From contig JARJMX020000066.1 in NCBI GenBank assembly GCA_029335925.2, positions 1 through 16,779 of the forward strand: a stretch of 16,779 nt of DNA. Reading direction: 5' to 3'. The DNA comes from Gammaproteobacteria bacterium. GTDB lineage: Bacteria; Pseudomonadota; Gammaproteobacteria; Halothiobacillales; Halothiobacillaceae. Positions 2 to 7,156 of the stretch are shown here, piece after piece; positions within the stretch are counted from its first letter, which is position 1; each line of letters starts with the position of its first letter. The notes beneath the pieces are model-generated. The model was not told where the DNA came from. It saw only the letters and a list, made by a program, of their open reading frames with translations, and searched no databases. The position numbers and the translations under genes were made by a program.

Positions 2-1279
2 ACAAGCGTAGCCGTCTCGGGCGTCGCGCTTGCGGCTGGCACTGTAGCCGGTCGCGCCGTGGCCAGCGATGTCGTCAAGGATCCGCTGCCCATCCCTCCG
101 ACCAACAAGATGCTGGGTCGTGGCGTGGTCAGCGTGCCGTACGGCATGCCGTCCAAGTTCGAAGCCCATGTGGTACGTCGTAACGTCGAGTGGTTGACCG
201 CCGACACCATCGCGTCCATCAGCTTCACCCCGCTGCAGGACCTTGAGGGCATCATCACCCCGGCGGGTCTTCACTTCGAGCGTTACCACGCCGGCGCCGT
301 GGATATCGATCCGGCCACCCATCGCCTGGTGATCCACGGCATGGTCGAAAAGCCGATGATCTTTACCATCGAGGACCTCAAGCGTATGCCGCAAAAGTCC
401 GGCATATGGTTCATAGAATGTCCGGCGAACGGTGGTATGGAATGGCGCGGCGTGCAGATGGACTCCCTGCAGTTCACCCACGGCATGATCTCTTGTTCCG
501 AGTGGGTAGGTGTAAGCCTGCTCGAGCTTATGAAGATCGTTGGCGTCAAGAAGGAAGCCACCTGGTTCTACGCCGAGGGCGCCGACGGTTCCGCGCTGCA
601 GCGCTCCATCCCGTTGCCGGGCGCCAAAGATCAGTTCGGTAAGCCGATTCCCGATGCCGACAAGATCTATAAGGACATCATCGTGGCTTACGCGCAGAAC
701 GGCGAAGCCCTCCGTCCAGAGAACGGTTACCCAATCCGTTTGGTGGTACCGGGCTGCGAAGCCAACCTGTCCATCAAGCACCTGCGTCGCATCAAGTTCA
801 CCAATAAGCCGCTGGTTACTTATCAGGAAACTCGTCACTACACCGACGGCATGCCGGACGGCCGCTTCCGTCAGTTCACTCTGATCAACGAAGCCAATTC
901 CGTCATCACCTTCCCCTGCCCGGACAAGAAGCTCTCGGGTAAGGGCTTCTACGAGGTGCGTGGTCTGGCCTGGTCCGGTCGTGGCAAAATCAAAGCCGTG
1001 GATGTTTCCGTCGATGGCGGCAAGACCTGGAAAGAGGCCAAGCTGGTCGAGCCGGTGTTCTCCAAGTGCCTGACCCGCTTCACCATGCCGTGGGAATGGG
1101 ATGGCAAAGAGACCCTGATCATGAGCCGCGCGACCGATGAAACCGGTTACACCCAGCCGACCCTGCGTCAGCTGCGCGAGGTACGTGGCACCAACAGCAT
1201 CTACCACAAGAACTCGATCCAGACCTGGAAGATCGAGGCGAACGGAGAAGTGAAGAATGTTCAAATCGAAAACCTCTAA
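2..1279 (+). CDS. soxC: SoxC, sulfane dehydrogenase molybdopterin subunit (5' end missing)
   Basis: SoxC carries the molybdenum cofactor of the periplasmic SoxCD sulfane dehydrogenase, which oxidises the protein-bound sulfane sulfur of the Sox thiosulfate pathway. The frame is open from base 2, so the gene starts outside the window. The first residues (SVAVSGVALAAGTVAG, then RAVAS) look like the hydrophobic core and cleavage region of a Tat signal; the twin arginines would lie upstream. A GTG at 59 would give a mature-like protein but is probably internal. Seen: the molybdenum-ligand cysteine in FIECPANGGMEWRG (codon 419-421), then LQFTHGM, YAQNGEALRPENGYP, LAWSGRGKI and RATDETGYTQPT, which are family signatures running through the sulfite-oxidase core and the dimerisation domain. 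About 17 residues between RSIPL and DIIVAYAQNG seem extra relative to the Paracoccus type, from memory. The end overlaps soxD by 23 bases, implying coupled translation. SoxC rather than SorA is favoured by these signatures and the neighbour. Confidence 0.93.
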   Translation, partial: TSVAVSGVALAAGTVAGRAVASDVVKDPLPIPPTNKMLGRGVVSVPYGMPSKFEAHVVRRNVEWLTADTIASISFTPLQDLEGIITPAGLHFERYHAGAVDIDPATHRLVIHGMVEKPMIFTIEDLKRMPQKSGIWFIECPANGGMEWRGVQMDSLQFTHGMISCSEWVGVSLLELMKIVGVKKEATWFYAEGADGSALQRSIPLPGAKDQFGKPIPDADKIYKDIIVAYAQNGEALRPENGYPIRLVVPGCEANLSIKHLRRIKFTNKPLVTYQETRHYTDGMPDGRFRQFTLINEANSVITFPCPDKKLSGKGFYEVRGLAWSGRGKIKAVDVSVDGGKTWKEAKLVEPVFSKCLTRFTMPWEWDGKETLIMSRATDETGYTQPTLRQLREVRGTNSIYHKNSIQTWKIEANGEVKNVQIENL

Positions 1280-1928
1280 GTCTGCCCTGGTGGCAGCGCT
1301 GTTCGCTGCTTCTTCCATGGCCTTTGCCGGTCCCTACAATGGGATTGGCAAGCCGATCACTGAGGAGGCCATCAAGCCGTGGGATATCTCTGTCTTCTTT
1401 GATGGCGAGAACCTGCCGGCTGGCAAGGGCTCGGTCGCGGATGGCGAGAAGATCTACCAGGCCAAGTGCGCGATGTGCCACGGCGAGTTCGGTGAGGGGG
1501 CCAGAGGCTATCCGAAGATGCTGGGCGACAAGCTGGAACTCCTGCAGCAGTATGCCAAATCTGGCGAGGACACCGTTGGTGCCCGTGGCATCAACAACCT
1601 GTGGGGCCATGCACCGACCCTGTATGACTACATCCGTCGTGCGATGCCGTTCTTTGCGCCGCAGTCGTTGAGCGACGACGAGGCTTACGCCACCACGTGC
1701 TACGTCCTGTATCTTGCTGAAGTGATCAGCGACGACAAAGCCGTGTGCGATGCGGACTTCCTTAAGAAGACCAAGATGCCGGCCCAGGATAACTACTACA
1801 CCGACCCGCGTCCGGACGTGAAGAACGTCCGCTGCATGAAAGACTGCATGAAGGAAGAGCCGATCGTTAAAGGCAAAGCCGTCATCGGCGATGTTTCTGT
1901 CGGCGCCGTGAAGAAGGTCGGCGAGTAA
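1257..1928 (+). CDS. soxD: SoxD-type monoheme cytochrome c subunit of sulfane dehydrogenase
   Basis: This is the electron-accepting cytochrome c partner of SoxC, acting in the periplasm. The 223-residue protein starts with a Sec signal peptide (cleavage likely after MAFA, residue 24). It has one heme-attachment motif, CAMCH at 71-75, and a likely axial methionine in RRAMPFFAPQSLSDDE (Met130). The well-studied Paracoccus SoxD is a diheme protein of nearly twice this length, so this is a short one-heme form. Four further cysteines lie after the heme domain: C148, C164, C193 and C197, the last two as CMKDC. They could form disulfides in the periplasm. The ATG at 1257 has a GGAG ribosome site at 1244-1247, nine bases upstream and inside soxC. 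A strong terminator follows at 1974-2012. The SoxD name rests on the neighbour and on the RAMPFFAPQSL block; a SorB-like name is the alternative. Confidence 0.85.
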   Translation: MFKSKTSKSALVAALFAASSMAFAGPYNGIGKPITEEAIKPWDISVFFDGENLPAGKGSVADGEKIYQAKCAMCHGEFGEGARGYPKMLGDKLELLQQYAKSGEDTVGARGINNLWGHAPTLYDYIRRAMPFFAPQSLSDDEAYATTCYVLYLAEVISDDKAVCDADFLKKTKMPAQDNYYTDPRPDVKNVRCMKDCMKEEPIVKGKAVIGDVSVGAVKKVGE

Positions 1929-1973
1929 CACTCGCAATCAGGATAGGGGCCGGTCGTCGGCACCCGTTCCCCT

Positions 1974-2012
1974 AAAAAGCTCGTCGAATCTGAAAGACTC
2001 GACGGGCTTTTT
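1974..2012 (+). terminator. Intrinsic terminator after soxD
   Basis: A 14-base arm at 1974-1987 pairs with 1999-2012 (AAAAAGCTCGTCGA with TCGACGGGCTTTTT; a single G-U wobble) across an 11-base loop. A further T-rich run follows to 2018. It lies 45 bases after the soxD stop. It closes the soxCD transcript and isolates it from the degraded region that follows. The A/T-rich outer stem would also work in the other direction. Confidence 0.9.
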
Positions 2013-2085
2013 GTTTTTCTGCATTCATGGTTGCAGTGAGCGACTCTGGAACCTTGAGTTCCATTCGTCACTCGTCCTGTTGCTG

Positions 2086-2370
2086 ATGGATCACGACACC
2101 CATCTCCTGCGCCATGCCATGCCGTCCCTGCTTGATGCCCTTCGCGACGAGGGGTATGACGTGGTGGGGCCGCGTGCGAGCGAGGGCGCGATCCTGTACG
2201 CTGATCTGGAGGATGTTGCCGATCTGCCGCAGGGCTGGCGGGATGTACAGCAGCCGGGGCGCTACCGCCTTGAGCAGGATGGTGGTGAGCGATGCTTTGC
2301 CTGGGCCAACGGCCCCAAGCGCCTAAGCTCTTCCTGTTCTCCTCGTGGTCAACCCTCTCCCGCTCCAGCT
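2086..2370 (+). pseudogene. hydB: HydB-like 4Fe-4S subunit of a group 3b hydrogenase, N-terminal remnant
   Basis: From the ATG at 2086 the frame reads LLDALRDEGYDVVGP, then ILYADLEDVADLPQGW and QQPGRYRLEQDGGE. This resembles the N-terminus of the beta subunit (4Fe-4S dicluster family) of sulfhydrogenase-type group 3b [NiFe]-hydrogenases: a region ending VVGP, an acidic stretch, then PGRYRL. At about 2311-2316 the match moves to another frame, where APKLFLFSSWSTLSRS corresponds to the family's conserved KRFLF block. So there is a frameshift within the fragment. Only about 95 residues of a protein of roughly 350 remain, and no cysteine cluster survives. At about 2370 the sequence passes directly into hydA remnant sequence. 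No clear ribosome site precedes the ATG. The identification is by remembered motif similarity, not a search. Confidence 0.65.
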
Positions 2371-2605
2371 CGCCACCTGGTTGGCCCGCTCGCCCGGCTC
2401 AACCTCAACCTCGACTGCCTGCCGCCCGCAACCCTGCTTGAGGCGACCGGCATCCGCTTCCCCAGCCGCAATATGTTCCACAGCGTGGTGGCGTGCGGTG
2501 GCGATCCCCATTGCCCTGTTCGAGGCCATCCGCCTGCTGGAGACCTACAGCCTGCTTGCATCCCCTCATATCGAGGTGCGACTGCACGCCGGGGTCTGCA
2601 AAAAG
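2371..2605 (+). pseudogene. hydA: HydA-like [NiFe]-hydrogenase large subunit, internal remnant
   Basis: The frame from 2374 reads HLVGPLARLNLNLDCLPP, then FPSRNMFHSVVA. After a frameshift at about 2491-2493 it continues RAVAIPIALFEAIRLLETY and SPHIEVRLHAGV. This follows the C-terminal half of group 3b hydrogenase alpha subunits closely: a VGPLARYNLN block, then RNPF, then a RAVE..YA..EALRL.E.Y helix and a V..RAG strand. The frameshift is explained by loss of one CG pair from a GCGCG run, which would restore VVARAVAI. About 78 residues of some 430 remain. Both sets of nickel-ligand cysteines are absent, so the product could not bind the metal centre. The fragment abuts the hydB remnant upstream, as if the rest of a hydB-hydG-hydD-hydA operon had been deleted. 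Confidence 0.75.
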
Positions 2606-2860
2606 CAGCACCCACAGACCGCTCCCCAGTATCCCCGCTCCGGCAAGGCACGTGATGCCCTCTGGCAGCAGGCGGGCGAGCGCGAGGCCCACAAGGTGCA
2701 GGCCGCGGGTGGTCGCTCCAAGACCGGTCAAGTAGGCGGTAAGGTCAGCGGACGGGTCCTCCATCCCATGGGTCAGGCCGTGGGGTGCGGCGAGCAGCAC
2801 CAGGAGGGGCGCGGCGAGCACAGGATGGGGGGCGCGCAAAGCCAGCCTCTGCCCTGCCTT
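2588..2860 (-). pseudogene. hupE: HupE/UreJ-family membrane protein, C-terminal remnant
   Basis: On the minus strand, reading down from about 2860, the frame gives APLLVLLAAPHGLTHGMEDP, then ADLTAYLTGLGATTRGLHLV and LAGAGILGSGLWVLLF. HupE/UreJ proteins are small membrane proteins linked to nickel uptake for hydrogenase or urease. Their C-terminal half has an HGxxHG motif between membrane helices, an A-Y-x-x-G helix with LLHLAG, and a final glycine-rich helix. All three elements are recognisable in order. The N-terminal half with the HPxxGxDH motif is missing, and no stop codon follows the last helix at the expected place. Its orientation opposes the flanking hydA and hypF remnants, so an inversion or rearrangement took place. 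It overlaps the hypF piece by a few bases in its poorly matching start. Confidence 0.58.
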
Positions 2861-3001
2861 GCGGTGCAGCACCATGCCGCGCATGCCTCCGCCCTCTATG
2901 CCGAGCTCTGGCAGGCCCGGGGGATGGCGCCCGGCGAGATGCTGGTGCTGGCCTGGGACGGGCTGGGGCTTGAGGAGGACCCGCGTCCGAGGACTGGCTG
3001 A
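2846..3001 (+). pseudogene. hypF: HypF (carbamoyltransferase) internal remnant
   Basis: The frame reads PLPCLAVQHHAAHASALYAE, then GEMLVLAWDGLGLEEDP, and stops at 2999-3001. HypF makes the thiocyanate used for the CN ligands of the [NiFe] active site. Its Kae1-like C-terminal domain has a VQHHxAHxxAL metal-site motif followed by a V.A.DG.G.G.DG strand and loop. Both are here with about the right spacing. The rest of a protein of about 750 residues is absent: the acylphosphatase, zinc-finger and YrdC-like domains upstream and the sequence after the loop, where WGGE would be expected. It ends six bases before the ubiA stop on the other strand. The match is short, so this call leans on the hydrogenase neighbours. 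Confidence 0.6.
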
Positions 3002-3006
3002 TTCAT

Positions 3007-3885
3007 TCATTTCCAAGCCAGATCCACCGCCAGCCCGACGAACACCGCCATGCCGAACCACTGGTTGTTCTTGAATGCTGCGATACAGGCGACCGGCTCA
3101 CGTTTGCGGATCAGCCACTGCTGCCACAGGGCCAAGCCCGCGGCGGCCAAGAGGCCCGCGCCGTAGGCCCAGCCGAGCTCCGCGTGCAGGCCGACTAGGG
3201 CCAGCAGCAGGAGGGTGGCGAGCTGAAGCCCGCCGATGATCAGGCGGTCGAAGCGGCCGAACAGGATGGCGGTGGACTTTACCCCGATCTTCACATCGTC
3301 CTCCCGATCAGCCATGGCATACATGGTGTCGTAGGCCACCGTCCACAGCACATTGGCGGCAAACAGTAGCATGGCGGTAAGATCGAGCGTGCCCTTTTCG
3401 GCGGCATAAGCCATTGGAATACCCCAGGAGTAGGCGATGCCGAGGTGCAGCTGCGGCAGGTGATGCCAGCGCTTCATGAAGGGGTAGCTCGCCGCCAGCA
3501 GCACGCCAACCACGGATAGCTTAAGCACCAGTGGGTCGAGCAGCAGGACGAGGCCGAAGGCGGCGAGCGCCAGCACGGCGAATACCATCAGTGCCTCCCA
3601 GGGCTGGATTAACCCCGCGGCGAGGGGGCGTTCGCGGGTGCGCGCGACGTGGGCGTCGAAGCCGCGGTCGGCGTAGTCGTTGATGGCGCAGCCGGCCGAG
3701 CGCATCAGCACCACCCCGGCGACGAATACGGCAAGATTCAGCGCCTTGGGCACGCCGTCCGCCGCCAGCCACAGGGCGAGCAGGGTCGGCCATAAGAGCA
3801 GGATCCAGCCGACCGGCCGATCCAGCCGGGTCAGGCGAACATAGAGGCCAAGGCGTTGATACAGCTGCGCAAACATGAGGGACAT
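3007..3885 (-). CDS. ubiA: 4-hydroxybenzoate polyprenyltransferase UbiA
   Basis: This is an integral inner-membrane enzyme that transfers the polyprenyl chain to 4-hydroxybenzoate, an early committed step of ubiquinone synthesis. The 292 residues match the usual length. Both aspartate-rich motifs that bind Mg-diphosphate are visible: NDYADRGFD at 69-77 and, after YDTMYA, DREDD at 193-197. Around eight or nine hydrophobic helices span the rest, and the C-terminus NNQWFGMAVF is typical. The start at 3885 has no good ribosome site; an in-frame ATG at 3876 (Met4) is an equally good choice. It is divergent from the carbonic-anhydrase-like gene, with a 57-base gap to that gene's preferred start at 3943. 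Its 3' end abuts the hypF remnant. No chorismate lyase gene (ubiC) is next to it. Confidence 0.96.
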   Translation of the reverse strand: MSLMFAQLYQRLGLYVRLTRLDRPVGWILLLWPTLLALWLAADGVPKALNLAVFVAGVVLMRSAGCAINDYADRGFDAHVARTRERPLAAGLIQPWEALMVFAVLALAAFGLVLLLDPLVLKLSVVGVLLAASYPFMKRWHHLPQLHLGIAYSWGIPMAYAAEKGTLDLTAMLLFAANVLWTVAYDTMYAMADREDDVKIGVKSTAILFGRFDRLIIGGLQLATLLLLALVGLHAELGWAYGAGLLAAAGLALWQQWLIRKREPVACIAAFKNNQWFGMAVFVGLAVDLAWK

Positions 3886-6603: not shown

Positions 6604-6717
6604 ATGAGGCAGGACTAAAAAAGAGATTTGGGCAATCTACGGCAAGCCGACACACGCGGTCAAATGCAGGAAAGTGATAAGGTCCATGAATTCTTCCTAT
6701 CGTTGCCCTCCATCTCC

Positions 6718-7068
6718 ATGAGCAGCCGTGCCCTCCAGGACTATCTCAAGGCCATCTACAAGCTGGCCGGGGACACCGCGGAGCCGGTCTCGACCTCCGC
6801 CTTGGCCGAACGGTTGAAGGTGGCTCAGCCCTCGGTCACCGGGATGGTGAAGACGCTGGCCGCCGAGGGGCTGATCGAGCACATCCCTTACTTGAGCCTG
6901 CGCCTGACTGCGGAGGGCCGTCGGATGGTGGTGGGGACCATCCGCCGCCATCGCATCGTTGAGCACTTCCTGGTGCAGGTGCTGGGGTTGTCCTGGGATG
7001 AGGTGAACGCCGAGGTCGCCGAGGTGCTGGAGCACAGCGTTTCCGAGCGAGTCGTCAACCGCATATAG
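6718..7068 (+). CDS. DtxR/MntR-family metalloregulator, C-terminally truncated by an in-frame TAG
   Basis: This is a metal-dependent transcriptional repressor, probably of the divergent mntH. From the ATG at 6718 it has the canonical opening ALQDYLKAIYKL, a winged helix (ALAERLKVAQPSVTGMVKTL, then GLIEHIPY and LRLTAEG) and the start of the metal-binding/dimerisation domain with His78, Glu102, Glu105 and His106 (AEVLEHSVSE). Lys11 sits where Bacillus MntR has a glutamate ligand. The frame stops at TAG 7066-7068. After the stop the same frame continues EVFGYPVSDPHGLP, the family's usual next block, so the stop is premature. The product is 116 residues. E. coli MntR ends only about ten residues later, so it may still work; the FeoA/SH3-like domain of longer members is gone. 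An ATG at 6664 gives a longer version but fits the family less well. Confidence 0.78.
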   Translation: MSSRALQDYLKAIYKLAGDTAEPVSTSALAERLKVAQPSVTGMVKTLAAEGLIEHIPYLSLRLTAEGRRMVVGTIRRHRIVEHFLVQVLGLSWDEVNAEVAEVLEHSVSERVVNRI

Positions 7069-7156
7069 GAGGTGTTCGGCTATCCGGTGAGCGACCCGCA
7101 TGGCTTACCTAAGCCTGCTAAGCTTGGGCTGATGATTCGGCCGCTTGATACCAGCC

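Follow-up and report, generated by a model that had tools for sequence, protein, structure and literature searches.

Between soxD and ubiA, the window (the whole stretch of 16,779 nucleotides analysed here, from genome G000) carries at 2086-3003 what we read as the remains of a group 3b-type [NiFe]-hydrogenase gene cluster, in the order hydB, hydA, hupE (on the opposite strand), hypF and, tentatively, the end of hypE (Table 1). No intact gene was found between soxD and ubiA, and an Rfam scan of the whole window returned no matches. The names soxC and soxD were assigned by family and position. The former matches Pfam Oxidored_molyb and Mo-co_dimer and shares 91% identity with soxC of G002 (like G003, a genome of the same genus); the latter matches Pfam cytochrome c and is 81% identical to G002:C137:5501-6169 (C, contig; L, fetched locus), which lies directly upstream of hydB. 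On the other side, ubiA shares 78% identity with G002:C46:1947-2804, where it adjoins hypE. The scan lists the hairpin at 1982-2004 on the minus strand only; read from the sequence, the plus strand holds the same hairpin followed by GGGCTTTTTGTTTTT.

Table 1 Coordinates of the hydrogenase relic and its neighbours in the window
Feature	Positions	Strand	Description
soxC	2..1279	+	5' end cut by window; sulfane dehydrogenase molybdopterin subunit; intact left neighbour
soxD	1257..1928	+	c-type cytochrome subunit; intact left neighbour
Terminator-like hairpin with T tract, 3' of soxD	1982..2020	+	hairpin itself 1982-2004
hydB relic	2086..2339	+	start codon and ~80 in-frame codons, followed by a probable 1-base shift and a short tail in decay
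hydA relic	2362..2599	+	middle of [NiFe] large subunit, ~residues 266-342; 2-base frameshift near 2500
hupE relic	2604..2845	-	C-terminal half of HupE/UreJ
hypF relic	2834..2980	+	middle of HypF including VQHHAAH stretch
Probable hypE relic	2969..3003	+	last ~ten codons and stop; tentative; absent from first-pass annotation
ubiA	3007..3885	-	intact right neighbour; Pfam UbiA 220.7 bits

Elsewhere in the window, an mntR-like regulator gene (6628-7133) beside an Nramp gene contains an in-frame TAG at 7066-7068, and its Fe_dep_repr_C match covers only positions 1-52 of 70. After the TAG the frame goes on with EVFGYPVSDPHGLPKP, which we take to resemble the usual end of mntR-like proteins. This is possibly a second decaying gene, or a sequencing error.

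The pieces were identified with intact proteins of G002 and G003 in tblastn searches of 1921-3020, run without low-complexity filtering or composition correction (E-values for a 1.1-kb target) and repeated on the whole window under default settings for both. Residues 2-79 of G002 HydB align to 2086-2319 (64%, E 2e-32; 4e-27 in the whole window under defaults), and blastn matches window 34-2339 to L095:4293-6559; the Fe-S part of HydB is missing. The G002 HydA protein aligns in two frames (E 5e-23), the second part at 2492-2596, and the alignment of the first part extends leftward into hydB, the real start lying at ~2362. The same piece scores 2e-21 in the whole window with default tblastn and 6e-14 in a whole-genome search, matches L095:9815-10047 in DNA (2375-2599, 78%, blastn), and contains neither CxxC motif. 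The hupE piece is located by Pfam HupE_UreJ at G000:C134:2612-2845 (29.8 bits vs a cut-off of 23), and the G003 HupE protein aligns to the minus strand at 2603-2878 (E 3e-15; 4e-6 in the whole window under defaults). HypF of G002 aligns to 2753-2980 (E 4e-21), overlapping the hupE piece, and HypF of G003 to 2834-2980 (E 8e-19), both with filters off. Since HypF goes unreported at 1e-3 in the whole-window tblastn with default filter and correction, its identity rests on a genome-wide protein search that finds the relic at E 9e-17, on a DNA match of 2843-2979 to G002 hypF (L096:4979-4843, 78%, E 2.5e-25, blastn), and on weak profile matches (Pfam HypF_C, 17.4 bits vs a cut-off of 23; TIGR00143, 17.9 vs 466). 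The tentative hypE piece matches the end of G002 hypE at 22 of 30 bases, vs 20 of 30 at the best other place in the window, a weak likeness alone, yet its place and order are right.

These results bear out the four fragments of the first-pass annotation (the HydB N-terminus, part of HydA, HupE/UreJ on the other strand, and HypF), in the places given there. Of the frameshifts that it saw in two pieces, the 2-base loss in hydA is clear in the alignment; the 1-base shift in hydB, near 2322, is only likely, as judged from a tail ~58% identical (counted by eye). Library scans of the fragments put only HupE over its cut-off, and the hydB and hydA pieces hit no Pfam and no NCBIfam family. Profile libraries can thus miss such relics, hydB and hydA here becoming clear only with close relatives. 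For hydG and hydD, tblastn gave no match at 0.01 in 1921-3020, and in the window neither the large nor the small subunit is complete with its metal ligands. With no hydG or hydD match, a frameshifted hydA without CxxC motifs and a hydB without its Fe-S part, the stretch itself looks dead.

A jump alignment of 1929-3012 against three parental stretches placed the pieces in parental order at 57-84% identity: hydB 2085-2338, hydA 2375-2599, hupE 2604-2782, hypF 2843-2967 and the hypE end 2969-3012 (70%). The exception is a 27-base segment at 2793-2819 that breaks this order and was taken as noise. The alignment scored 212.7, vs -39.8 for reversed and -40.9 for reverse-complemented parents. In GC-rich sequence, chance or low-complexity similarity might be thought to produce such a picture, given that the library scans are empty for HydB and HydA, that HypF is lost under default tblastn filtering and that the hypE tail alone is near chance level. 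Against this stand the E-values for HydB, HydA and HupE that persist in the whole window under default filters, the genome-wide and DNA matches of HypF, the collinearity with real relatives, and the low scores of the control alignments. The first-pass annotation had argued that chance was unlikely, and the argument holds; from these comparisons the chance reading appears already refuted for hydB, hydA, hupE and hypF, the hypE piece excepted, and as an account of the relic it deserves virtually no credence.

A DNA search with 1921-3020 against 57 genomes (G000 included) matched nine. The hydB, hydA and hypF pieces have counterparts in G002 and G003, the hydA piece alone in G047, G048, G010 and G022; G004 and G005 gave short weak matches. 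The latter two were followed up as candidate relics and rejected, the matches leading to no hyd genes. The protease query gave two weak matches (L102, L153).

The G002 genes run soxC-soxD-hydB-hydG-hydD-hydA-hycI-hypA-hypB-hypD on contig C137 and hypF-hypE on contig C46, where ubiA, a hexapeptide gene and a Lit-like gene follow in the same order as in the window. Pfam and NCBIfam identify the G002 genes as Fer4_22, NAD-binding/DHODB Fe-S, Oxidored_q6, NiFeSe_Hases, HycI, HypA, HypB, HypD, HypF and HypE, and hupE was not found in this genome by a PF04955 search. The two contigs presumably join at this locus, so that the hydBGDA-hyp cluster that the first-pass annotation predicted between soxCD and ubiA in a relative does exist, spanning two contigs. 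The soxD-ubiA interval is ~0.9 kb in the window vs ~12 kb in G002 (the 8.3 kb up to where C137 ends and 3.7 kb of C46, counting an apparent insert). The junction of the hypD end and hypF start occurs twice in G002 (L095:13282-13328 and L096:6418-6464; 47 bases, 91% identical), near the contig ends; the sequence beyond differs, as after an insertion with duplication between hypD and hypF, or in two alleles. In neither intact cluster (L095, L094) was hypC among the genes identified.

The G003 cluster, ~11 kb on C60 beside recJ, reads hydBGDA-hycI-hupE-hypABDFE, with hupE reversed between hycI and hypA. Its hupE matches the window piece in order and strand, and this gene order explains the reversed hupE of the relic. 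In G003, soxD and ubiA lie on contigs other than the cluster's. The neighbour facing ubiA is a LysR-type gene in both G001 and G003; after soxD comes a patatin-like gene in G001 and folB in G003. In G004, soxD and ubiA are on different contigs. Of the five genus genomes examined, none but G000 and G002 therefore shows the soxD-hyd-ubiA arrangement, which in G002 is spread over two contigs. At 38 hydA loci of other genomes, no soxC, soxD, ubiA or other window gene was found alongside, most of these loci extending <=~1.5 kb per flank and thus giving no measure of neighbour frequency.

Within the G000 bin, a 214-contig draft that is 92.5% complete, searches gave no match to the [NiFe] large subunit (PF00374), HypD (PF01924) or [FeFe] hydrogenase (PF02906), and full-length HypF and HydA queries find the relic only. 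The absence covers these five queries. Within the draft and the families searched, no intact hydrogenase was found in the rest of the genome, a check that the first-pass annotation had proposed; the missing part of the draft could hold one.

Across the family, HypD was found in five of 27 genomes (G002, G003, G006, G010 and G022) and PF00374 exceeds its cut-off in eight of the 27; neither the large subunit nor HypD was found in G001 or G004 by searches with PF00374 and PF01924. In G008, G012 and G014 (family f1, g3), PF00374 is over its cut-off in frames of 522-540 aa, yet HypD was not found; these proteins are perhaps relatives rather than [NiFe]-hydrogenases. HydA of G002 and G003 is 83.5% identical, and the two are sisters (support 100/99) in a tree of 35 rows, comprising five from the family and the best 30 loci from a search that matched 144 of 369 class genomes. 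Their nearest rows come from two other families (94/98), g3 HydA stands apart, and 16 of the 32 inner branches are unresolved.

Identities of soxD and ubiA divide the genus into two groups, G000 with G002 and G001 with G003 and G004. Under vertical inheritance of the cluster within the genus, G000 would have lost it and the second group (G001, G004) would have done so independently; G003 could also have gained it by transfer. We rate the chances as even that the same group 3b hydrogenase was lost more than once within one genus of sulfur oxidisers, leaving a relic in G000 and nothing that was found in G001 and G004. If so, the genus would span intact, relic and absent states, a natural series on which the disappearance of hydrogen metabolism from sox-bearing bacteria could be timed.

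Changes per codon were assigned to branches for 203 alignable relic codons and for 660 codons of soxD, ubiA and the hexapeptide gene; soxC was left out of these three controls, having no G003 match in the stretch compared. On the G000 branch, changes at positions 1/2/3 amount to 0.113/0.113/0.182 in the relic vs 0.045/0.048/0.150 in the controls (Fisher p=0.014). For the G002 branch, values in the hyd codons (0.049/0.039/0.108) resemble those of the controls (0.048/0.041/0.102; p=0.86). Compared directly between the G000 and G002 branches, the relic codons give p=0.34, and the test is modest, with relic columns chosen for alignability. Because G002 keeps full-length genes, the loss would postdate the split of G000 from G002, a timing in keeping with the extra changes at positions 1 and 2 on the G000 branch. 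Treating that branch as a mixture of constrained and free evolution, our own arithmetic gives a very rough date for the loss, about midway between the split and the present.

Fragments in parental order and orientation, together with full-length G002 genes at the same flanks, support the reading of the stretch as a pseudogenised, collapsed group 3b-type [NiFe]-hydrogenase cluster, which it almost certainly is. The stretch has intact homologues at the same place in G002 (across two contigs), and shows large deletions along with the hydA frameshift. The ancestor shared with G002 would have carried soxD-hydB-hydG-hydD-hydA-hycI-hupE(reversed)-hypA-hypB-hypD-hypF-hypE-ubiA, an arrangement that combines the place of the G002 cluster with the gene content of G003, neither genome showing the whole set. 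On the G000 lineage the cluster would no longer have been selected, and at least four internal deletions may have followed, running from the middle of hydB to the middle of hydA, from hydA to the hupE end, from the middle of hupE to the middle of hypF, and from hypF to the hypE end. These would have removed ~10 kb, taking ~11 kb down to 0.9 kb, with small indels and substitutions spoiling the remainder. The number and order of the deletions, their stepwise course and the reason for the loss are all inferred. At ~20% divergence the breakpoints cannot be fixed; a GAGGA common to both parents at the hypF/hypE junction (by eye) is only suggestive.

Two other accounts of the stretch were weighed. 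The genome could really contain an intact cluster, pieces of which, or of two strains, the assembler put together between soxD and ubiA, a concern raised by the many contigs of the G000 draft and by the contig break inside the cluster of G002 itself. A simple misjoin, however, would not be expected to yield ordered pieces at 57-84% identity to relatives, nor a frameshift inside hydA with extra position-1/2 changes on the G000 branch, and intact hydA, hypD and hypF were not found elsewhere in the bin; we regard an artefact as very improbable. Slightly less probable again is a chimeric protein in use, encoded by the open frames 2011-2655 (HydB N-terminus and part of HydA) and 2345-3001 (part of HydA, antisense hupE, HypF and the HypE end). 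These frames are 214 and 218 codons long, and a single frame holds the second hydA part together with hypF and the hypE end, but chance ORFs are common in a region of 63-70% GC (95 ORFs of >=60 codons in 16.8 kb). The missing hydA CxxC motifs and HydB Fe-S part and the raised position-1/2 changes also speak against use, and no sigma-70-like promoter match occurs in 1900-3100.

The collapsed cluster is ordinary gene loss, unusually easy to read and well documented by relatives. The first-pass annotation saw in it a 'metabolic switch', which is one conceivable cause; it could also be plain genome reduction. Genome sizes (1.64 Mb at 92.5% complete for G000 vs ~2.4 Mb for G002) would be as compatible with general reduction as with a change of energy source. 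No earlier report of the relic was found among the titles and abstract openings of the papers listed by the searches, and group 3b hydrogenases are described as widely distributed in a sulfidic spring community (PMC10811913). The loss of gene clusters is common but usually visible only as presence or absence; here an intermediate is visible, and the full-length genes of the sister species allow the order and timing of hydrogenase loss to be studied.

As judged from its gene families, the parent enzyme is a group 3b-type [NiFe]-hydrogenase. The order Fer4_22, NAD_binding_1 with DHODB_Fe-S, Oxidored_q6 and NiFeSe_Hases in L095 of G002 is that of a four-subunit HydBGDA operon, and this set (Fe-S beta, NAD(P)/flavin gamma, small delta and nickel-binding large alpha subunits) defines the group. 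CGIC and CISC, the N- and C-terminal CxxC motifs, read directly from the G002 HydA translation, are the nickel ligands. An ancestor with such a hydrogenase beside its sox genes, proposed in the first-pass annotation, is supported by the full-length G002 genes at the same flanks. The solved structure nearest in sequence to G002 HydA is subunit alpha of sulfhydrogenase 1 (9nez_D, E 9e-61), and sulfhydrogenase I of the Pyrococcus furiosus type has the same four-subunit make-up as the G002 cluster. The G002 proteins fall far below the cut-offs of the NCBIfam sulfhydrogenase models (HydA, 224 of 700 and 205 of 880 bits; HydB, 157 of 750), and those of G003 are likewise below (238 of 880, 237.5 of 700 and 169 of 750 bits). 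Sulfhydrogenase (polysulfide-reducing) activity of the lost enzyme is thus at most a conjecture, and with scores so low polysulfide reduction should not be claimed for the parent. Among intact systems, the G003 cluster has the same gene content as the parent proposed for the relic, including the reversed hupE, but lies beside recJ and not between soxD and ubiA. The G002 hydBGDA-hyp cluster differs from the relic in its full-length open genes, in the lack of a detected hupE and in its spread over two contigs, and agrees with it in genes, order and soxD/ubiA neighbours, the hydB, hydA and hypF pieces being 74-78% identical in DNA.
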